Shown piece by piece: positions 877 through 24,394 of a DNA stretch of 24,394 nt. Under the pieces are notes generated by a model. It did no database searches. It was not told the origin of the DNA and saw only the letters and a list, made by a program, of their open reading frames with translations. The stretch spans positions 1 through 24,394 of IMG/VR virus record IMGVR_UViG_3300020160_002813; one strand, 5' to 3'. Positions within the stretch are counted from its first letter, which is position 1. Each line of letters opens with the position of its first letter. Made by a program: the position numbers and the translations under genes. The DNA is from a virus.

Positions 877-2628
877 TTAGAACTCAAATTCTCCACCACC
901 CTCTGGAGCTGGAGGAGCTTCAGGTGCCGCCTGAGGAGCTGCTTGACCTCCACCTTGTGCTGGAGCTTCAGGTGCTGCTTGTGGAGCTGCTTGTCCACCA
1001 CCTGGCATTTCACCACTTTCACCAGAGCCACCAAAGCCACCGCCTCCACCACCTTCTGATGGAGCACCAGGTTCACCAGTGGCACCAGCTGCTTGATTAG
1101 CAACATCCATTGCCCAGTACTTAGCATTCTCTGCTTTTTCTTCTGGAGTAAGTTTGAATACATTATCCATAATCCATTCAATGTGAAAGTATGGTTTCTC
1201 ACCATTCATCACACCAAGTAAAGTACCAACTATACCTGCTTTCTTTTCTAAATTGTTTATCTTTTTCCATTCTTCAAATACTTGATTTGTAAAGAAATTA
1301 ATATCTATTGAATTTGTAAAAAACTCATCATCTTTTAATTCAGGAAACTCAATTAGCATCTGTAGTCTTAATGGCTTAACAATTAATTCTTTAAAGTTTG
1401 ATCTTAATCTACTTACAAAGTTATGAAATTTAATCTCATCTCTTGTCATCTCAGCTGCATCAGTAACTAAGTTACCACCACCATTATCACTTTCAAATCT
1501 TGACATTGGTATTTTAGATGCTCTCTTTAAAGCCTTAAAGAACCAATCTAACATTGTGTCATCATTTAAGTTATGACCTTGTGGAGAAACTAATTCCATA
1601 TTAGGTGTACCACCATCTCCCTCAGGAAACCAAATTTGTTTGTTATAAGGCAAATGTTTAGAACCATTAATAGTTAAAGTACCTAATGAATCATCCCATT
1701 CTACTTCTTCCGAATAATCATGTATTAATTGTCCTATTTGTTCTTCTGCTCTTTGTCTAGACATTCCTTTAATTGGAATAGTAAACTTTTGATAAATAGT
1801 TGCATTAATAATGTTAAACATTATTCTTGTTTGTTGTAATATTTTTAATTGATTATAAGGTTTAATTAAGCCCTCTACATAAGATGTCTCAGAAAACTCA
1901 TTTTGAGTTGAGTATGAAACATAAACTATCTGCGAATCTAAGAATATTCTTCTTAATTGTGGATCCTCAGGAAACTGAATCCATAAGTGACCAATTGATG
2001 GTTCATATGCAGGAACTAAAGTCTCTGGTCTTAATCTATTGAAACTAATAATATTTTTCTTTTTATCATCAAATATAATCTCAAGTGCAACATAACCATC
2101 AACTAAAAAGTCTTTCATCATATTCCATGCAGTAATGTTATCAGAGAAACCAAACTTGTTATAAATAGATTCAAAGTACTCTTGGTACTTATCTTGTATC
2201 TCTGTTGAATATTCTACTGGTAAAGCCACTGGTGAACAGAAATCTCTCTCATCATTATAAACTATACACTCATCTGCAATTGAACTCACAAAGTCTCTAA
2301 TTTCATCTTTAATAGAGTATTCTCTTAATATTCTTCTCTTATCTGCATAAGCTTTGTCTAAGTAAGGTATTGATTTTCTGTTTAATACTGATGCAACAGC
2401 CCTTTGCGAGAAGAAGTCATACATCGAATTTCCACGAGCAGCATATGGGTCCTCATTAATTCCAATACCCACTTGATTTCTAATAATCATATCATCATAG
2501 TTCATTCCATATGATGATAGGGTTCTAAGTATTCTATTAAACAATCCTTTATTTTCAACTGCTGATTGCCCTGCAGCTCCAAAGTTTGCAGTATTACTAT
2601 TAGTGTCGAAGTTATTATATGATGCCAT
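877..2628 (-). CDS. 20: portal vertex protein (T4 gp20 family)
   Basis: The 583-residue product is a T4-type portal. It forms the dodecameric ring at the unique capsid vertex through which DNA is packaged and to which the neck attaches. Diagnostic segments are SYVEGLIKPYNQLKILQQ (clip/stem entry, matching the T4 AIKPANQLKLLED region), the FPEGDGGTPNMELVSPQG loop and the following LDWFFKALKRASKIPMSRFE helix, in the same order as in gp20. The length is slightly above the T4 protein (524) because of an unusual Gly/Ala/Pro/Gln-rich tail at residues 515-583 with an exact 14-residue tandem repeat (GGGQAAPQAAPEAP at 543-556 and 559-572). A late-promoter-like element lies 22 bases upstream of the start. 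Confidence 0.93.
   Translation of the reverse strand: MASYNNFDTNSNTANFGAAGQSAVENKGLFNRILRTLSSYGMNYDDMIIRNQVGIGINEDPYAARGNSMYDFFSQRAVASVLNRKSIPYLDKAYADKRRILREYSIKDEIRDFVSSIADECIVYNDERDFCSPVALPVEYSTEIQDKYQEYFESIYNKFGFSDNITAWNMMKDFLVDGYVALEIIFDDKKKNIISFNRLRPETLVPAYEPSIGHLWIQFPEDPQLRRIFLDSQIVYVSYSTQNEFSETSYVEGLIKPYNQLKILQQTRIMFNIINATIYQKFTIPIKGMSRQRAEEQIGQLIHDYSEEVEWDDSLGTLTINGSKHLPYNKQIWFPEGDGGTPNMELVSPQGHNLNDDTMLDWFFKALKRASKIPMSRFESDNGGGNLVTDAAEMTRDEIKFHNFVSRLRSNFKELIVKPLRLQMLIEFPELKDDEFFTNSIDINFFTNQVFEEWKKINNLEKKAGIVGTLLGVMNGEKPYFHIEWIMDNVFKLTPEEKAENAKYWAMDVANQAAGATGEPGAPSEGGGGGGFGGSGESGEMPGGGQAAPQAAPEAPAQGGGQAAPQAAPEAPPAPEGGGEFEF
914..1002. repeat. 41-bp imperfect direct repeat in the portal gene tail
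   Basis: Two copies, 914-954 and 962-1002, both starting GGAGCTTCAGGTGC and ending in CCACC, are spaced 48 bases (16 codons) apart. They encode an identical 14-residue peptide with a few synonymous differences. This is the most GC-rich stretch of the window. Confidence 0.85.
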
Positions 2629-6449: not shown

Positions 6450-7355
6450 TTAATCTTTATTAGTATTCCTATTTTGTATTCCTCTTGAACTAGGATTATC
6501 ATTTCTTGCATTTGTTTGCTCCCTTGCCCTTAATATATTATTAAACCATCTTGTTCTTTTTGGTTGTAAAAAATAATCATCTTGATTGTAATAACTTGAT
6601 TGTGTGGAACCTGGTTGGTTAAAGTAGTCTGAAAAACCTCCTTCAATTGAATATCCATTCAAATCTGATTGCCCAGTACCTTTTGAGAATCCTGGCATAT
6701 CAATTCTATCCTTTCTAAATGCAGGGTAATAAGTTTGAACTTCAAAAGAAACTTTTAATTTTACAGTATTATCACTTGTCAAATTCTTTTCTCTTGATAT
6801 TTCTATACCATTTGTATCAGGCATTAAAATAACTGCATCAATATTCATAAAGTTGTGTTCAAAGTACATAAACTTGTAAATCCACAAGGTATCCATTATT
6901 GATTGACTACACTTAAATATATCTAATTCACTTGCCAATAATATTTCTAAGTCATAAGTTACTGAAACAGGAACTGACCTAACTCTACCAAGTATCTTTC
7001 TTATCTCAACTTCATTTTCTACAACTGTTCTTAACCAAACATTTGGATTTGCATATTCATCTGCTCTAATATTAAAACCAGTCATTGTTATGTGACCTCT
7101 TGGTATCATATCAGTATTTAACTCAACATATCTACCATTACCAGAAGAATCTCCAGAAACTATATCATCAACAAATGAATCTAATAAAAATCTTTCATCA
7201 CCTGTCATTGAGTAATAAAAGGGTACATTCACATATTTATCACCTGATGAAAATCTATTAATCCACTTTACTTGTCCTTCCAATGTATCTAATACGCAAA
7301 TGGTTAGATCACGAAAGAAGACATCTTCAAAATTAAATCTTTCTCCTATTGACAT
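6450..7355 (-). CDS. 15: tail sheath stabiliser / tail completion protein (T4 gp15 family)
   Basis: The 301-residue product follows the T4 gp15 pattern from end to end: FRDLTICVLDTLEGQVKW near the start, SGDKYVNVPFYYS (T4 SGDKFIRVPITYA), IPRGHITMTGFNI (T4 LPRINLHLVDFSY), VPVSVTYDLEILLASELDIF (T4 SPIKMIYELSIFTRYEDDMF) and VSFEVQTYYPAF (T4 LTFEVNGWMYPP). gp15 caps the tail tube and sheath and joins the tail to the head neck. The C-terminal ~70 residues are polar, low in hydrophobic residues and probably disordered. The gene starts inside the last codons of a homing endonuclease gene (10-base overlap), so it may be transcribed from the promoter ahead of that gene. Confidence 0.82.
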   Translation of the reverse strand: MSIGERFNFEDVFFRDLTICVLDTLEGQVKWINRFSSGDKYVNVPFYYSMTGDERFLLDSFVDDIVSGDSSGNGRYVELNTDMIPRGHITMTGFNIRADEYANPNVWLRTVVENEVEIRKILGRVRSVPVSVTYDLEILLASELDIFKCSQSIMDTLWIYKFMYFEHNFMNIDAVILMPDTNGIEISREKNLTSDNTVKLKVSFEVQTYYPAFRKDRIDMPGFSKGTGQSDLNGYSIEGGFSDYFNQPGSTQSSYYNQDDYFLQPKRTRWFNNILRAREQTNARNDNPSSRGIQNRNTNKD

Positions 7356-8260
7356 AATCTATTATTTATTTTTTTAAAATCAGACTCCCAGATAGAGACT
7401 ATTTTATAACCTAGTGATTTTAAACATTCCTCTCTCTCAATTGTTTTTTTATACAATTCACCATATTTAATACCATTAACTTTATTTATATCATCTCCTT
7501 TATATATATTAGGATTACCATGCCAAAAATCACCATTAAACTCATATATTATATTTTCATCTAAATTAATACCATCTACATAAAAATTATCTATCTTGTA
7601 TTGTCTATAATCTTTATGTATACCAAAACTATCTAACCAAATATTTTCCAATATACCACCATTTCTATTACACTTTGAACAACCTCTTCCATTTAAGTGT
7701 GAATTTGGCGTCATTGTAAAATCACCATGTTCTTTACAAACTATTGTTACTTTTGTGTTTGAGTTTAAGTATTTTAGTTTTGAATAATCATATTTACTAT
7801 TATGCAATATATCTGATTTTTCGATAAATTGTAGAGTAGTTAGTTTACCTTTACCAATTGAATTACATTTTACACATCCACCTGTTTTAGAAGATAAGTG
7901 TTTTTCTGGGGTTTGTAAAAATTCTATATTGTGTTCTTTACATGTTATGATAACTTTTTCTTTCATTTTAACATAATCAACTTTGGAATAATCATATTTA
8001 AAATTATGTTTAATATTGAATTTATTTAATAACTCATCTATATTGTTTTTTCTTAAATTGATCCTTTTAATTATACCACAAGTTGGACAACCACTTCTAT
8101 AATGTACAGAAGGTAACTGATAAAAAATTCCATGTTCCAAACAATTTATTGAAATCAAAGACTTCTCACTAACATATTCTGTATTTGAATAGTCATATCT
8201 ATTACCATGTTTTGATGTTGACTTTAAAATAAATTCTTGTGTTGTTAATCTTTTAGACAT
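7346..8260 (-). CDS. homing endonuclease-like protein: three zinc-ribbon repeats plus Vsr-like nuclease domain
   Basis: The 304-residue product has three copies of a ~56-residue module at about 7-62, 75-132 and 143-198. Each has a KYDYS-type motif, a Cys-x-x-His pair (C40/H43, C107/H110, C175/H178) and a C-x-x-C pair (C58/C61, C129/C132, C194/C197), making zinc ribbons of the type that bind DNA in phage homing enzymes. Residues 205-300 resemble the very-short-patch-repair (Vsr)/EDxHD nuclease fold: VDG at 228-230, YEFNGDFWHGNP at 239-250 with Glu240, Asp244 and His247, then EREECLKSLGYKIVSIWESD. It overlaps the gp15 gene and has a late-promoter-like element just 4 bases ahead of its start. 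It probably spreads by cutting phages that lack it next to the gp15 gene. Confidence 0.8.
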   Translation of the reverse strand: MSKRLTTQEFILKSTSKHGNRYDYSNTEYVSEKSLISINCLEHGIFYQLPSVHYRSGCPTCGIIKRINLRKNNIDELLNKFNIKHNFKYDYSKVDYVKMKEKVIITCKEHNIEFLQTPEKHLSSKTGGCVKCNSIGKGKLTTLQFIEKSDILHNSKYDYSKLKYLNSNTKVTIVCKEHGDFTMTPNSHLNGRGCSKCNRNGGILENIWLDSFGIHKDYRQYKIDNFYVDGINLDENIIYEFNGDFWHGNPNIYKGDDINKVNGIKYGELYKKTIEREECLKSLGYKIVSIWESDFKKINNRLCQ

Positions 8261-8975: not shown

Positions 8976-9947
8976 ATGTCAGTAAATAAATTATTATTGT
9001 GGGAAAAATATCGTCCAAAAAATATGGAAGATGTTATCTTACTACCAAGAATAAGAGAAAGATTCAAAGATGGTGTTAATCAACACTACATTTTTCATGG
9101 TCACTATGGAACTGGTAAAACCAGTTTAGCAAGAATACTTATAGGTAAATACTCAAAAGAAACTGCATTTTTAGAACTTAATTGTTCTTTTGATACTTCT
9201 ATTGATGTTCTTAGAACTCAAATTGATGACTTTTGTAAATTTTCATCAATAATGGATGTTAACTCAGATGTAAAGTATGTATTCTTAGATGAATTTGAAA
9301 GAGTTTCTGCAAACTTTCAAGATGCATTCAAAGCATTTATTGAGAAGTATAACAAGAATGTTAGATTTATTATCACAACTAATCACATCAATAAAATATC
9401 TGATGGGTTAAAGTCAAGAATTAAACTAGTTGACTTTGATGTTCAAGGATTAGAAGAAGAAAAGTTCTTAAAACAAGAAATCTATAAAAAGATTACTAAT
9501 ACAGTTCTACCAAATGAAGGTGGTGAAATACCTAAAGAAGATTTAATTTCAATTATAAATAAGAAATTTCCAGATTTCAGGTCTGTAATGGTTGAAGTTC
9601 AAGGTTATTTAGAAACAGGTACATTAAGTAGTGGTACAAGTAATATATCTAACAAAGTTAAATTAGATTTATACAAAAGTTTATATGATGATTTAGACTA
9701 TGAACAAATCTATCACTTCTTAATGTCTAACTTTGGAGCTGAGAAGATACACTCAATGTTAACTCTTTTAGGCAAACCATTTGTTGAGTGGGCCTTTAAT
9801 GAGAAAAGAGAAGATATATCTAAATTATTTGAGACAAGTTATGTTGTAACTGAGTTTACACCTAAATTAGATAGTGCAATTGATCCTATAATATTAGGTA
9901 TGACTGTAGTAGGAAAATTTAGAGATATATTAAAAAACCCAGTTTAA
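8976..9947 (+). CDS. 44: sliding-clamp loader ATPase subunit (T4 gp44 family)
   Basis: The 323-residue product is an AAA+ clamp-loader subunit which, with a gp62-type partner, loads the sliding clamp for replication and, in T4, indirectly supports late transcription. Visible motifs: LWEKYRPKNMEDVILLP at the N-terminus, Walker A GHYGTGKTS at 42-50, Walker B VFLDE at 102-106, sensor 1 TTN at 134-136, and LKSRIKL at 145-151, where the usual SRC arginine-finger motif keeps its Arg but lacks the Cys. The length matches T4 gp44 (319). It has the clearest Shine-Dalgarno-like site in the window (AAAGGAAATTAT before the ATG) and no late-type element, which fits earlier expression. No gp62 or clamp gene lies next to it, unlike in T4. 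Confidence 0.93.
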   Translation: MSVNKLLLWEKYRPKNMEDVILLPRIRERFKDGVNQHYIFHGHYGTGKTSLARILIGKYSKETAFLELNCSFDTSIDVLRTQIDDFCKFSSIMDVNSDVKYVFLDEFERVSANFQDAFKAFIEKYNKNVRFIITTNHINKISDGLKSRIKLVDFDVQGLEEEKFLKQEIYKKITNTVLPNEGGEIPKEDLISIINKKFPDFRSVMVEVQGYLETGTLSSGTSNISNKVKLDLYKSLYDDLDYEQIYHFLMSNFGAEKIHSMLTLLGKPFVEWAFNEKREDISKLFETSYVVTEFTPKLDSAIDPIILGMTVVGKFRDILKNPV

Positions 9948-11275: not shown

Positions 11276-11882
11276 TAGGACAATAAGTTGCAGAATAAAT
11301 ATAATTGTTATCTCTTCTAATTTTAACTCCAAAAGTTTTTGCTGCAGTTTCCACATCTAAATAACATTCTTGATCAGAACCACCAACCATTACAACTTCT
11401 TTACCTTTTAAGTCAGTAAACAACTCTTGTAGTTTTTTAGGTAGATGATACCATTTATGATTGTTACCAATGTAAATAAGATAAGTATCTTCTGTAGTTT
11501 TGAAGAAGTCACCTCTTTTTAATTGATGATTATCTTCTTTTTGTTTAATATCATTAAATACCTTTTCATCTAAAATCTTTTTATAGAAATCTGCATCAAC
11601 ATCATAATTATATCTTTTCTCAATCATATCTCTTTGATTAGGAAAACTATATAAATCATTGTGAACTGGAATATCTGGATTCTCATCATATAGATAATCT
11701 TTATCTACATTCTTACCCATTACATGATTATCCCATATTTGATAAACATCTTTAAAACTTTGACAATATTTATTAAGTGCAGTTATATAATTATCTGTGA
11801 AAAATTTCTTGAAACTATGTTGTACATCAACTATAATTAATGTACTTGAATTGAAACTTTCATATAATTTAATATGTTTCAT
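11268..11882 (-). CDS. nicotinamidase/isochorismatase-like cysteine hydrolase with capsid-targeting-like N-terminus
   Basis: The product is 204 residues from the start chosen here (MKHIKLYESFN); a start at 11894 adds only four residues. LYE|S matches the (I/L)-x-E rule of T4 prohead cleavage. The rest is an isochorismatase-family hydrolase: STLIIVDVQHSF gives the nucleophile-activating Asp19, IWDNHV gives Asp51 and His53 as candidate metal ligands as in nicotinamidases, IEKRYNYDVD gives Lys89, and VGGSDQECYLDVETAAKTFG gives the catalytic Cys173. A D-K-C triad is therefore complete. Nicotinamidases turn nicotinamide into nicotinate for NAD recycling; other members cleave isochorismate or related amides, so the substrate is open. 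The insert between residues 55 and 85 is longer than usual. The start lies inside the end of the upstream HNH gene. Confidence 0.72.
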   Translation of the reverse strand: MKHIKLYESFNSSTLIIVDVQHSFKKFFTDNYITALNKYCQSFKDVYQIWDNHVMGKNVDKDYLYDENPDIPVHNDLYSFPNQRDMIEKRYNYDVDADFYKKILDEKVFNDIKQKEDNHQLKRGDFFKTTEDTYLIYIGNNHKWYHLPKKLQELFTDLKGKEVVMVGGSDQECYLDVETAAKTFGVKIRRDNNYIYSATYCPIK

Positions 11883-12618
11883 AAATATTATCAATTTTTA
11901 TATATCTATTTACATAACTACAAAGTGGTTGTAAATTTGTGTAATGATTTAATTCTATTATTTCTTCTTCTATTTTACCAGAAGATAAAGGTATTTTGTG
12001 GTCTATATCCCATCCATAATTAAATTGTCCATTATATTTACCATAATTTTCCCAAGTCATCCAAGGTTCAAATTTACTTTCTAAATAAAGCTTTAAATAT
12101 TCAATTGAACAACCTATTATATTAATTGTTGTATTATTTTTTTTAGAACCTATAGATTTCAATGATTCAGATATTCTATGTCTAATTTGATCTTTCAATC
12201 TATACAAAATATCTGTAGATCTTTTATCACTTCTATAAACTCTAAAATATTCTCTTAAATCTTCTTTTTTTAATTCTCTATAAATAACTCCATATTCTGA
12301 GTTTTTTTCTCTATTTTCAAATCTATATTTTTTTTTATATTCTTTACACTTATCTGTCTTACAATATAAACTACTTCTATTTTTTATTATATCTATATTA
12401 TCCAAATAATAATTTGAATGATAATCCTTTAACTTAGATTCATTATTTAATCTATATTCTTTATTATAGTTTTTTATTTTCTCTTTATCTTTTTTAGAAT
12501 TTAATGTTTTACTTGCATTACATTTTTTACAATAAATACTTATACCATCTTTTTTTGACTTATCTTTACCAAAGTATTCATATTTTTTAATTTCACTACA
12601 TTTTTTACAACACCTCAT
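11869..12618 (-). CDS. HNH homing endonuclease with N-terminal zinc motif
   Basis: The 249-residue product begins with a zinc-binding motif (Cys4, Cys7, Cys30, Cys33), continues with a long lysine/tyrosine-rich helical DNA-binding stretch (residues 40-150), and ends in an HNH nuclease domain: YGWDIDHKIPLSS with Asp206-His207, then ELNHYTNLQPLCSYVNRYIK with Asn224/His225, Asn228 and Asn237. It is inserted tightly between two capsid-targeting-like genes: one base overlap with the upstream gene stop (TAATG), and a 14-base overlap with the downstream hydrolase. Very A/T-rich codons and many lysines fit a mobile gene, probably free-standing, since no interrupted coding sequence or intron is visible around it. 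Confidence 0.85.
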   Translation of the reverse strand: MRCCKKCSEIKKYEYFGKDKSKKDGISIYCKKCNASKTLNSKKDKEKIKNYNKEYRLNNESKLKDYHSNYYLDNIDIIKNRSSLYCKTDKCKEYKKKYRFENREKNSEYGVIYRELKKEDLREYFRVYRSDKRSTDILYRLKDQIRHRISESLKSIGSKKNNTTINIIGCSIEYLKLYLESKFEPWMTWENYGKYNGQFNYGWDIDHKIPLSSGKIEEEIIELNHYTNLQPLCSYVNRYIKIDNIYETY

Positions 12619-15763: not shown

Positions 15764-15786
15764 TATTTTTTCACTATTTTTGTACT

Positions 15787-17856: not shown

Positions 17857-18963
17857 TTAGTTAGATAGAGGGAAATCTACCTTAGGTGAAGATTGATAAC
17901 CAACTATCTTAAAATCTTCATATTTTATATCATCAATAGATGTATTTGATAATTCTAATGTTGGTAGTTTATAACTTTCTTGTTCTAATTGTTGTTTAAC
18001 ACCTTCTACTTGATCCAAATAAATGTGACAATCTCCACCAGAGAATATTAAATCATTTGGAACCATATTAACTTCTCTTGCCAATAGATGTAATAGAAAG
18101 GCATAAGATGCTATATTGAATGGAATTCCAAGTGGAACATCACAACTTCTTTGAAACCATTTCAAGTCTAATTTTCTTTTAGGAACATTTAATTCATCCA
18201 ATCTTTTTTCATCAAAGTCATTTCCATAACTAATATGTTTACCTAATGAACTACACCAATGTTCTAGTCTTTGTTCAAATGACATTTCTGTAGTATAACA
18301 TTGAAATCCAAAGTGACAAGGTGGTAAAGTCATATTTTCAATTTCTGAAACATTCCAAGCATTAACCATAAGTCTTCTTGAGTCTGGATTAGTTCTAAGG
18401 TCATTAATCAGATTAGCAATTTGGTCTATGCCATATTTCTCTTCATCAACATTATTACCACCCCATTCAATATCATGTGCAATTGCCATTCCTGCAGAAA
18501 CACCTTCCCAATTTCTCCATTGTGCACCATATACAGGTCCTAATTCACCCCATCTTTCAAAGAAATCTTCATCAGTTTTCATACTTTTAACAAAATCTTC
18601 TTTAGAAAGTAATTGCAATGGTTGAAAATCAATTTGTGGATTTTCTCTTCTAACTTTTTCATCAGTTGTTCTAACATATCTCTCATATGCTTTGTAGGCA
18701 TCACCATTCCAGATATTACAACCATTATCAACTAAGTATTTGATATTGGTATCACCTTTCAAGAACCACATAAGTTCAATGATAACTGCTTTAGTGAACA
18801 TTTTTTTGGAAGTAAGTAAAGGAAATCCTTCACTCATATTAAATCTCATAGAGTAGTCAAATACAGATAATGTTCCTGTACCTGTTCTATCAATTTTTTT
18901 AACACCATTTTTAAGAATATGTCTTAAAAAATCAAGGTATTGTTTATCTACATTATTATTCAT
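17857..18963 (-). CDS. thyA: thymidylate synthase, enlarged form
   Basis: ThyA converts dUMP to dTMP with methylenetetrahydrofolate, supplying thymidine for an AT-rich genome. Key residues are in place: KIDRTGTGT with phosphate-binding Arg27, PLLTSKK, the catalytic LPPCHFGFQ with Cys216, PDSRR (195-197), RSCDVPLGIPFNIASYA with Asn284, and GDCHIYLDQ (usually GDAHIYxNH), where Cys and Asp-Gln replace common residues. At 368 residues it is about 100 longer than the E. coli enzyme; inserts lie near 96-138, 151-180 and 223-266, between catalytic blocks. The start codon sits in the 3' arm of a perfect 15-base-pair hairpin (18956-18995), suggesting control of translation. It lies within the cluster that starts with the Acb1-like gene. 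Confidence 0.95.
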   Translation of the reverse strand: MNNNVDKQYLDFLRHILKNGVKKIDRTGTGTLSVFDYSMRFNMSEGFPLLTSKKMFTKAVIIELMWFLKGDTNIKYLVDNGCNIWNGDAYKAYERYVRTTDEKVRRENPQIDFQPLQLLSKEDFVKSMKTDEDFFERWGELGPVYGAQWRNWEGVSAGMAIAHDIEWGGNNVDEEKYGIDQIANLINDLRTNPDSRRLMVNAWNVSEIENMTLPPCHFGFQCYTTEMSFEQRLEHWCSSLGKHISYGNDFDEKRLDELNVPKRKLDLKWFQRSCDVPLGIPFNIASYAFLLHLLAREVNMVPNDLIFSGGDCHIYLDQVEGVKQQLEQESYKLPTLELSNTSIDDIKYEDFKIVGYQSSPKVDFPLSN

Positions 18964-18995
18964 ATAACAAAATTAGTTTCTTGTTATATGAATAA
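18956..18995 (-). promoter_or_regulatory. 15-base-pair hairpin burying the thymidylate synthase start codon
   Basis: Perfect inverted repeat: arms TTATTCATATAACAA and TTGTTATATGAATAA (18956-18970 and 18981-18995) with a 10-base loop. In the minus-strand transcript the ATG of thyA lies in the 3' arm and is fully paired. It has no T-run after it in the transcript, so it is not a usual terminator. A translation switch or a protein-binding operator are both possible. Confidence 0.6.
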
Positions 18996-19007: not shown

Positions 19008-19031
19008 TTAATCATGTAACATCATGATTAA
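19008..19031 (-). repeat. short inverted repeat just after the 164-residue gene
   Basis: Arms TTAATCATG and CATGATTAA with a 6-base loop, overlapping the stop codon of the gene at 19028. It lacks a T-run and stands 12 bases from the larger thyA hairpin; it may weakly end or shape the upstream message. Confidence 0.35.
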
Positions 19032-19522
19032 TTATTTAATATATTTTCAAGTTTTTTATTTCTGTTAAACTCTTTTAACTCAGGAATCTGACAAAGATGT
19101 TTATCTATTAATATAGTATCTAACTTTTCCAACTTTATTTCTTCATATAAACCAGTATTTCCTACAGATTTAACAGGCATAAAAAAATCATCTAAATCAA
19201 AGAATAATCTAATAGAATAATTAAAATAAGGCTTAACCTCATTACCATTATAATCAAATAAATAAATTGTCTTAACCTCAACTTCACATAGCTTATCATC
19301 AGACATTCTTTTTTTCAACCAAATAGTACCATCAGGCCTTTCTTTTAAGAACTTTATAGGTGAAACTTTATCTCTTAAAAAGTAGAATAGTTTCTTACTC
19401 ACACTATTCATTATCCAAATATAGAAGTTTCTTTTTATGTATTGAAACTCACTAGCAGGAATTGAACAAGGTACAATTTCAAAGTCATATGTATCTTTTA
19501 TGTAATTTACTATTTGTTCCAT
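19028..19522 (-). CDS. hypothetical protein between the Acb1-like gene and thyA
   Basis: An unrecognised 164-residue protein starting MEQIVNYIKDTYDFEI. It has an aromatic-rich middle (NFYIWIMNSVSKKLFYFLRDK; YLFDYNGNEVKPYFNYSIRLFF) and a charged end. It overlaps the Acb1-like gene by 13 bases, so the two are probably translated together. Its neighbourhood (anti-defence enzyme and nucleotide metabolism) gives no firm hint of function; a companion to the anti-CBASS protein is possible. Confidence 0.62.
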   Translation of the reverse strand: MEQIVNYIKDTYDFEIVPCSIPASEFQYIKRNFYIWIMNSVSKKLFYFLRDKVSPIKFLKERPDGTIWLKKRMSDDKLCEVEVKTIYLFDYNGNEVKPYFNYSIRLFFDLDDFFMPVKSVGNTGLYEEIKLEKLDTILIDKHLCQIPELKEFNRNKKLENILNN

Positions 19523-20091
19523 TCTACTATTTTTAATTCACTCAATGGTTTTCTTGGTTCATTAGAAATCAATTCATGTCTTTTACAACACTCTAAAATA
19601 TATTCAGAATGTTCTATATAATCTTTTCTTACTTTAATTGCAAGTGGACTATCATTTAATGAAGTAGCCTCTGGATATTTAACTAATGCATATCCTAATG
19701 TTAAGTGCATACCATAGAATGGTTCTCTTGATAAACCCATTACCTCTCTAATACTTTCAGCTTCTGGACAGTGAACTCTTAACCACCAGTGTTCACCATT
19801 GCTTCTTGGTTCAGTTTCAACATAAAAGTCTATTTCTTTACCATCAAATATTTGTACAAATTGTTCAAATACTTTAGCATCCATTCTATCATTAATAAAG
19901 GTAACGTGAGTTCCTCTCAAGGTGCTATTTAACTCAAGGTTAAATCTTTTTTTCAAAAACCAAGCATAGTATCTATCCATATCACAATTGGTACGTATCA
20001 TAGCAACTCTCTTCCAAGAAGCTTGACTTACATGCTTCTTAGTTTTGTCCTCAGGACTGAAATCTAATATACCTCTTACTTTAAATACCAT
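19510..20091 (-). CDS. acb1: anti-CBASS 2H phosphoesterase (Acb1, T4 gp57B family)
   Basis: A 193-residue 2H-phosphoesterase. Acb1 of T4 degrades the cyclic di- and trinucleotide signals of host CBASS immunity. Both catalytic His-x-Thr motifs are present: LRGTHVTFINDR with His62-Val-Thr64 and YGMHLTLGYA with His129-Leu-Thr131. The surroundings also match the Acb1 pattern as I recall it: SWKRVAMI at 26-33, YYAWFLKKRFNLELN, EPRSNGEHWWLRV at 94-106 and SIREVMGLSREP before the second motif, then a C-terminal DYIEHSEYILECC helix with Glu160. Length and order fit T4 gp57B. It is the first gene of the minus-strand series leading to thyA and is divergent from a small + strand gene across a palindromic A/T element. 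Another 2H substrate remains possible. Confidence 0.85.
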   Translation of the reverse strand: MVFKVRGILDFSPEDKTKKHVSQASWKRVAMIRTNCDMDRYYAWFLKKRFNLELNSTLRGTHVTFINDRMDAKVFEQFVQIFDGKEIDFYVETEPRSNGEHWWLRVHCPEAESIREVMGLSREPFYGMHLTLGYALVKYPEATSLNDSPLAIKVRKDYIEHSEYILECCKRHELISNEPRKPLSELKIVEWNK

Positions 20092-20109
20092 ACTGCAAAG
20101 ATAATAAAA

Positions 20110-24061: not shown

Positions 24062-24394
24062 ATGAGAGAATATTTATTTGTATATGGGCAGTTCAGAGAT
24101 ACTGCAAGAAAGTTATTAAAGGATCCTGTTTTTTGTGGCAAAGCAACAATTAATGGTAAAATTTATAAAGTCAATGAGTTCTATCCTGGTTTTGTTGATG
24201 GTAAAGGTAAAATATTAGGAGATGTCTATCTAATTGATCCTGTTCTATTTCCAGAACTTGATGAATTTGAAGGTGATGAGTATGTAAGAACTAAAGTAAA
24301 GACATCAACAGATATTGAATGTTGGGTTTATAAATACATTCATGATGTTAAAGGATTTGAAGAGGTTGAAGGTGGAGACTGGTGGCTTAGATAA
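24062..24394 (+). CDS. gamma-glutamylcyclotransferase-like (AIG2/GGCT fold) protein
   Basis: A 110-residue product whose stop codon is the last three bases of the window. It begins with LFVYGQFRDTARKLL, the nucleotide/glutathione-binding loop of the YGxLR type (here YGQFR), continues with KIYKVNEFYPGFVDGKG and GDVYLIDPVLFPELDEFEGDEY, where the Glu in DEFEG is the usual catalytic acid, and ends with WVYKYI. This is the small GGCT/AIG2-like cyclotransferase fold, known in cells to release 5-oxoproline from gamma-glutamyl amines. In phages the substrate is unknown. The gene is divergent from the small gene at 24029 with a GTAAATATATAGTTT leader. Confidence 0.85.
   Translation: MREYLFVYGQFRDTARKLLKDPVFCGKATINGKIYKVNEFYPGFVDGKGKILGDVYLIDPVLFPELDEFEGDEYVRTKVKTSTDIECWVYKYIHDVKGFEEVEGGDWWLR

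Follow-up and report, generated by a model that had tools for sequence, protein, structure and literature searches.

The 2H phosphoesterase gene and its conservation

The window, that is, the whole 24,394-nucleotide stretch of viral DNA that was analysed, contains a 2H phosphoesterase gene at 19510..20091 on the minus strand, which starts with ATG, encodes 193 amino acids and was recognised from its relatives, its predicted fold and Pfam. The protein has two H-x-[TS] motifs (H62/T64 and H129/T131) in the order and spacing expected for the 2H superfamily. The first motif, H62-V63-T64, lies at 19900..19908 and the second, H129-L130-T131, at 19699..19707, both on the minus strand, and the histidine of each was invariant in the alignments. 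Four further blocks were located in the 193-residue protein: SWKRVAMI (residues 25-32), RFNLELN (49-55), RSNGEHWW (96-103) and MGLSREP (118-124). The open reading frame, both motifs and the four blocks had been quoted in an earlier note on this DNA, and all of them were found in the sequence.

A first, single-sequence scan of IMG/VR revealed relatives of the gene at no fewer than 37 loci, down to 37-39% identity, and a profile scan revealed 166 relatives; conservation of this extent places the open reading frame far above chance. In the family alignment, W26, Y41, Y42, H62, R115, H129 and G133 remained invariant down to 22-28% identity. The dN/dS of the gene against three close relatives was 0.025/0.28, 0.049/0.47 and 0.052/0.43, and the gene is under purifying selection. 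We conclude that it is a real, conserved 2H phosphoesterase gene of a relative of the largest known bacteriophages. When 84,980 bacterial and archaeal genomes were searched for the family, a single match was obtained (L175:994-1479), on a contig of 7.8 kb from a Mollicutes metagenome bin, which may be a phage contig binned with Mollicutes; with only this match, the cellular context of the family could not be read.

Immediately downstream, a gene of 164 amino acids without a recognised domain occupies 19028..19522 on the minus strand, and its overlap with the 2H gene was confirmed to be 13 bases. Searches of Pfam, PHROGs, NCBIfam, PADLOC and the PDB sequences with the 164-residue protein found no match, and its N-terminal half was well conserved where the protein was present. 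In the window, its gene and the 2H gene may share a transcript. The earlier suggestion that it could be a partner of the 2H enzyme was not supported, as only 8 of about 94 loci have it beside the 2H gene and no domain was recognised in it, and it was rejected as a general partner because other genes fill its place in most relatives.

Phage and host of the window

A T4-type portal protein gene at 877..2628 (minus strand) places the window among the Mahaphage-type huge phages. The portal protein was 84% identical over 510 residues to that of LR745206 (634,780 bases), and 78%, 54% and 48% identical to those of the huge phages LR756502 (642 kb), LR756504 (636 kb) and LR756501 (735 kb), respectively. 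The other T4-type genes of the window are those for head closure, the baseplate wedge and the clamp loader of DNA polymerase (8976..9947, plus strand; profile match), and together with the portal they bear out the earlier description of the phage as T4-like. Judged by the portal, the 24-kb window is a piece of a Mahaphage-type huge phage. Replication in Bacteroidetes was predicted for the Mahaphage clade, the size class of the 634-kb LR745206 (PMC7162821), and the Mahaphage-type portal thus makes a Bacteroidota host plausible for the phage of the window. The Bacteroidota affinity put forward in the earlier note is supported by the 84% portal identity to this 634-kb genome and by the TAnnTTTG promoters described below. 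In LR756502, whose portal is 78% identical, the best candidate for a 2H gene had E 0.006 and was not convincing, which indicates that the 2H gene comes and goes; this genome has an Acb1-family gene and RlaP.

Several other genes of the window were also observed. A gene at 7346-8260 (minus strand) encodes a DUF4379 zinc finger with a weak match to a restriction-type nuclease, and a gene at 11869-12618 (minus strand) encodes a protein in which an HNH-like D-I-D-H-K-I-P motif was recognised by eye alone; each is a probable free-standing endonuclease. A gamma-glutamyl cyclotransferase-like gene (PF06094, E 2.8e-20) begins at 24062 on the plus strand and runs to the window end at 24394. The thymidylate synthase gene (17857..18963, minus strand; Pfam) encodes 368 amino acids in the window and at three related loci (L006-L008) and about 276 at three others (L005, L009 and L011), a difference due either to an insertion of about 92 residues or to another start.

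Predicted fold of the 2H protein

AlphaFold2 models were obtained for the window protein (mean pLDDT 80.7) and for a relative from locus L064 (171 amino acids, 63% identical, 53-sequence alignment), which was modelled with a pLDDT of 93.7 and a pTM of 0.86. The leading structural matches of the two models included the 2H enzymes MHV ns2, Usb1, CNPase, Acb1 (PDB 7t26), plant CPDase and LigT-like proteins, with tied Z-scores of 4.5-6.5. Acb1 7t26 showed the lowest rmsd among the listed 2H matches, 2.9 Å over 104 residues with a Z-score of 6.0. Foldseek against the PDB gave no significant match for either model (best E 0.12 and 0.05); the best match of the L064 model, likewise not significant, was 1fsi (E 0.05), an ADP-ribose 1'',2''-cyclic phosphate phosphodiesterase of Arabidopsis.

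Z-scores of up to 6.5 are below 8 and weak when taken alone; together with the motifs and with matches to the Pfam family 2H-SAK, they make a 2H fold convincing for the modelled proteins. The earlier note had also proposed a 2H phosphoesterase, and this part of its reading was supported by the predicted fold, the structural matches and the 2H-SAK matches. Because the Z-scores were tied across the 2H subfamilies, the fold backs the superfamily and is silent on the substrate, and for the same reason the choice of a subfamily by fold comparison was abandoned.

Sequence searches pointed to a separate family within this superfamily. Sequence and profile searches of solved structures returned chance matches only, and NCBIfam and PADLOC gave nothing useful for the window protein, the GajA match (E 0.028) being at chance level. 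LigT/ThpR, CNPase, Usb1 and plant CPDase have the 2H fold in common with the window protein, with tied Z-scores of about 5-6, but their sequence similarity was not significant; E. coli ThpR, the protein compared, was rejected as a closer relative (hhalign 0.2%, a weak test made with a single sequence). The window protein matched phrog_12204 (E 1.8e-14) and gp116 of phage G (E 1e-15), and the jumbo-phage 2H proteins (phrog_12204; phage G gp116; CBB_185, GAP32_178 and K64-1 gp033) belong to the same family as the window protein. The window clade differs from these in a conserved N-terminal T-x-K-H-x2-Q-x2-W-K stretch and in a C-terminal tail that extends further, and its gene has a leaderless promoter of its own.

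Comparison with Acb1

The earlier note had identified the protein as an Acb1-type anti-CBASS nuclease. Acb1 (T4 gp57B; Acb1 of Erwinia phage FBB1, PDB 7t26/7t27) resembles the window protein in its 2H fold, its two H-x-T motifs and its viral origin, and the motifs and fold are what favours orthology. However, the Pfam Acb1 model (PF23474), which detected T4 gp57B at 2.7e-60 as a positive control, gave zero matches among 28 family members including the window protein, at E-values up to 1. In contrast, the 2H-SAK model (PF22547) matched 23 of the 28; the window protein itself stayed below the Pfam gathering cut-off (E 0.0012, 19.6 of 27 bits), and the Kaldavass member, which lies above it (E 9.8e-10, 39.2 bits), serves as a bridging member.

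Profile comparison by hhalign with an alignment of 15 diverse Acb1 proteins gave probabilities of 2.5% (family profile of 54 sequences) and 4.7% (28 sequences, more diverse), over a short aligned piece in which the second motif was laid on the first, out of register. As a control, the same profile reached 99.8% (E 2e-28, 129 columns) against the family's own members from phage G, K64-1, CBB and Kaldavass, which are only 22-28% identical. Acb1 additionally conserves a proline before the second histidine and Y-S after the first H-x-T, and both features are absent from the window protein. Acb1 is further characterised by metal-independent cleavage of 3'3'-cGAMP, cUA and cAAA and by the stacking residues Y12, W74 and F107, and it uses a C-terminal lid with E141 and W147 (PMC9117128). 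The short members of the 2H family (134-141 amino acids) stop a few residues past the second motif, which leaves no room for the lid or for E141/W147, and the lid region is missing in them.

Acb1 was also found as a separate gene in some of the same phages. Eight of the 48 virus records having the 2H gene contain a distinct gene above the Acb1 cut-off, and CBB and Kaldavass carry separate Acb1 genes (E 3e-16 and 7e-16) of T4-like length (149-151 amino acids). In these records and in CBB and Kaldavass, all relatives of the window, which is itself a fragment, the Acb1-family gene always lies elsewhere, 13-165 kb from the 2H gene. A true Acb1 orthologue is thus refuted as a family assignment by the PF23474 result (0/28), the hhalign probabilities and the separate Acb1 genes of the relatives. 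The absence of a significant Acb1 match together with matches to another 2H family, 2H-SAK, is the outcome that the earlier note had itself named as speaking against the Acb1 identity when it proposed a profile comparison. On these sequence comparisons, the family is one of stand-alone 2H phosphoesterases of huge phages, related to Pfam 2H-SAK and separate from Acb1.

Promoter of the 2H gene

In Bacteroidota promoters, the -7 element reads TAnnTTTG and spans -12 to -5 relative to the transcription start (PMC6847099). We found an element of this type, TATCTTTG, at 20096..20103 on the minus strand. Counted back from the A of the 2H ATG, it covers exactly the positions -12 to -5, so that the mRNA is expected to start at the ATG and to be leaderless. 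Of 28 diverged relatives from the window clade, 24 have TAnnTTTG at -14 to -10, and several also have TTTG 19-20 bases further upstream. Exactly at -12 from the ATG, the element occurs before three of the 31 window genes, namely the 2H gene, the thymidylate synthase gene (element at 18968-18975, minus strand) and a gene of 87 amino acids (element at 15775-15782, plus strand), and leaderless mRNAs made by a Bacteroidota host polymerase are predicted for these three. A scan of the region for sigma-70-type promoters and terminators gave results near the level of shuffles, and the Bacteroidota-type element is the only informative promoter signal in the region. In Flavobacterium johnsoniae, leaders exceed 10 bases in 87% of the transcripts with a probable promoter (PMC6847099), and an exactly leaderless layout is thus uncommon in the type of host presumed here.

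When TAnnTTTG was located before the 838 open reading frames of LR745206, its offsets peaked at -12 (17 genes), with mostly 1-4 genes at offsets away from the peak. Only 34 of the 838 genes have the element at -14 to -10, and these include the 2H gene, RlaP and one ligase-domain gene; among the repair genes other than 2H, two of six have it (p 0.022). The other members of this class include genes for an NAD-dependent DNA ligase, an RNase H, a PP-loop ATPase, an HD-domain protein and a calcineurin-like phosphoesterase. A GGACT-family gene of LR745206 belongs to the leaderless promoter class as well. In other relatives, the element was found 11-28 bases before the start of seven of eight RlaP genes and of all eight probable counterparts of the LR745206 ligase, while six further ligases had none within 30 bases, a split of the ligases that was made after the data had been seen. 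The promoter-sharing ligase of LR745206 scored higher as a DNA ligase (36.6 bits) than as an RNA ligase (31.3 bits). Promoters common to 2H, RlaP and a ligase are consistent with a common role, within a class that is broad. This class looks like early genes generally and suits a counter-defence gene equally well.

Gene neighbourhood and RNA-repair genes

To describe the surroundings of the 2H gene, the neighbouring genes were clustered over about 94 loci. The common order in the window clade was a glycosyltransferase gene on the opposite strand, a peptidase-like gene (absent from the window), a small divergent gene, the 2H gene and, further on, thymidylate synthase. Another clade (L022-L038 and L103-L126) showed the order RNA ligase (PF09414), small gene, PARP, phrog_3668 hydrolase, 2H and RlaP (PF10127). 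At locus L015, which falls on the same side of the tree's deep split as the window and thus on the opposite side from this clade, RlaP lies directly downstream, 61 bases from the 2H match, and is followed by a gene of the phrog_3668 hydrolase family. The next gene after 2H is an RNA ligase at two further loci (L063 and L064), and in CBB and Kaldavass an RNA ligase gene lies about 3 kb upstream with a DUF2828 gene in between.

The proximity of 2H to repair genes gave a combined Fisher p of 0.033, calculated with one record per lineage and with 2H placed at random; a repair gene within 5.5 kb of 2H was found in four of 16 lineages against 1.9 expected (p 0.11). Among the 48 records with the 2H gene, many of which are fragments, 26 have an RNA ligase and 21 have RlaP. 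LR745206 combines the 2H gene with five ligase-domain genes and one RlaP. A long relative from the window's lineage (G002), whose 2H protein is 91% identical, has a T4-like Pnkp adjoining an RNA ligase, plus RlaP; in this relative, the distance from the 2H gene is about 42 kb to RlaP and about 81 kb to the RNA ligase. Full-length T4-like Pnkp was found in this genome and in CBB, Kaldavass, K64-1 and G033. According to its annotation, T4 Pnkp acts on 2',3'-cyclic phosphates, and the 2H enzyme would be partly redundant in these five genomes.

KptA usually acts after the 2H enzyme, removing the 2'-phosphate. It was present in only two of the 48 records and was rejected as the step downstream of the phage enzyme. 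The PARP gene noted above (for example L030:2600-3892, plus strand) occurs at about 22 loci, where a PARP catalytic domain (E 1.1e-27) lies between the RNA ligase and 2H/RlaP; in this one clade of large phages, ADP-ribosylation is possibly tied to RNA repair. Taken together, the gene context and the shared host-type promoters give moderate, not decisive, backing to an RNA-repair role.

Discussion

We tentatively propose, as the leading reading and one that we rate just short of an even prospect, that the 2H enzyme heals 2',3'-cyclic phosphate ends of RNA beside a separately encoded RNA ligase and RlaP. The present data fit best with the published assignment by Iyer et al. (2021), in which jumbo-phage 2H enzymes were assigned, as a kind, to 2',3'-cyclic phosphates and RNA repair (PMC7824862). 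In 2H enzymes, and in Acb1 (PMC9117128), the two H-x-T motifs provide the acid and base with which a phosphodiester next to a ribose 2'-OH is attacked or opened.

The catalysis, substrate, timing and biological role that we infer for the enzyme are as follows. The gene's own Bacteroidota-type promoter would be used by the host RNA polymerase, probably at an early stage, to give a leaderless mRNA. In the protein, the H-x-T motifs would serve as general acid and general base towards a phosphodiester involving a ribose 2'-OH. The most likely substrate would be the 2',3'-cyclic phosphate that host anticodon nucleases and other metal-independent RNases leave behind when they cut tRNA or other RNA, and the opened end would then be ready for the RlaP nucleotidyltransferase and RNA ligase of the phage, presumably encoded elsewhere in its genome. 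The modest clustering, the redundancy with Pnkp, the rarity of KptA and the higher score of the shared ligase as a DNA ligase argue against this repair role.

The main rival, which we consider unlikely but the strongest of the alternatives, is a functional analogue of Acb1 from a different 2H family, with cyclic di- or trinucleotides or some other signalling nucleotide of CBASS, Pycsar, Thoeris or type III CRISPR as its substrate. Viruses have repeatedly used the 2H fold against immune signals, as seen in T4 Acb1 (PMC9117128) and in enzymes of poxviruses and RNA viruses (PMC11410667), and both the early promoter and the rmsd of 7t26, the lowest of the listed 2H matches (with a Z-score tied to the others), agree with such a function. 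However, the family has no sequence or profile relation to Acb1, eight of the 48 records as well as CBB and Kaldavass already have a separate Acb1-family gene, the 134-141-residue members lack room for the lid and E141/W147, and no association with other anti-defence genes was seen. A more specific version, which we regard as improbable, would be a second, Acb1-independent 2H lineage of huge phages that destroys an immune signal untouched by Acb1, alongside Acb1 in some phages, and that is expressed immediately from a leaderless host-type promoter.

A housekeeping role in NAD/ADP-ribose metabolism, in which the 2H enzyme would act on small molecules (for example ADP-ribose 1'',2''-cyclic phosphate or 2',3'-cyclic mononucleotides), appears more improbable still. 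The best Foldseek match of the better model (1fsi, E 0.05) was of this kind, though not significant, and a PARP-domain gene lies a few genes upstream of 2H in one clade; against this, all the 2H structural matches were tied and no member of the PARP cluster was near 2H in the window's clade. KptA is the main producer of ADP-ribose 1'',2''-cyclic phosphate, and its presence in two of 48 records also speaks against this role. That the window protein is a true Acb1 orthologue, given the silent PF23474 model, the out-of-register hhalign result and the distinct Acb1 genes of the same genomes, is scarcely credible.

The preferred reading, RNA repair, and its rivals concern an enzyme family that is, to our knowledge, unstudied in the largest phages, and we know of little work on RNA repair in phage-host conflict in Bacteroidota. 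The present analysis removes a wrong Acb1 label and indicates that 2H motifs alone are insufficient to call an anti-CBASS enzyme; Acb1 and this 2H family coexist in some phages. It also defines a conserved family of enzymes in the largest phages, for which the candidate substrates are clear and testable, and tentatively connects this family with RNA repair and with early transcription that depends on the host polymerase.
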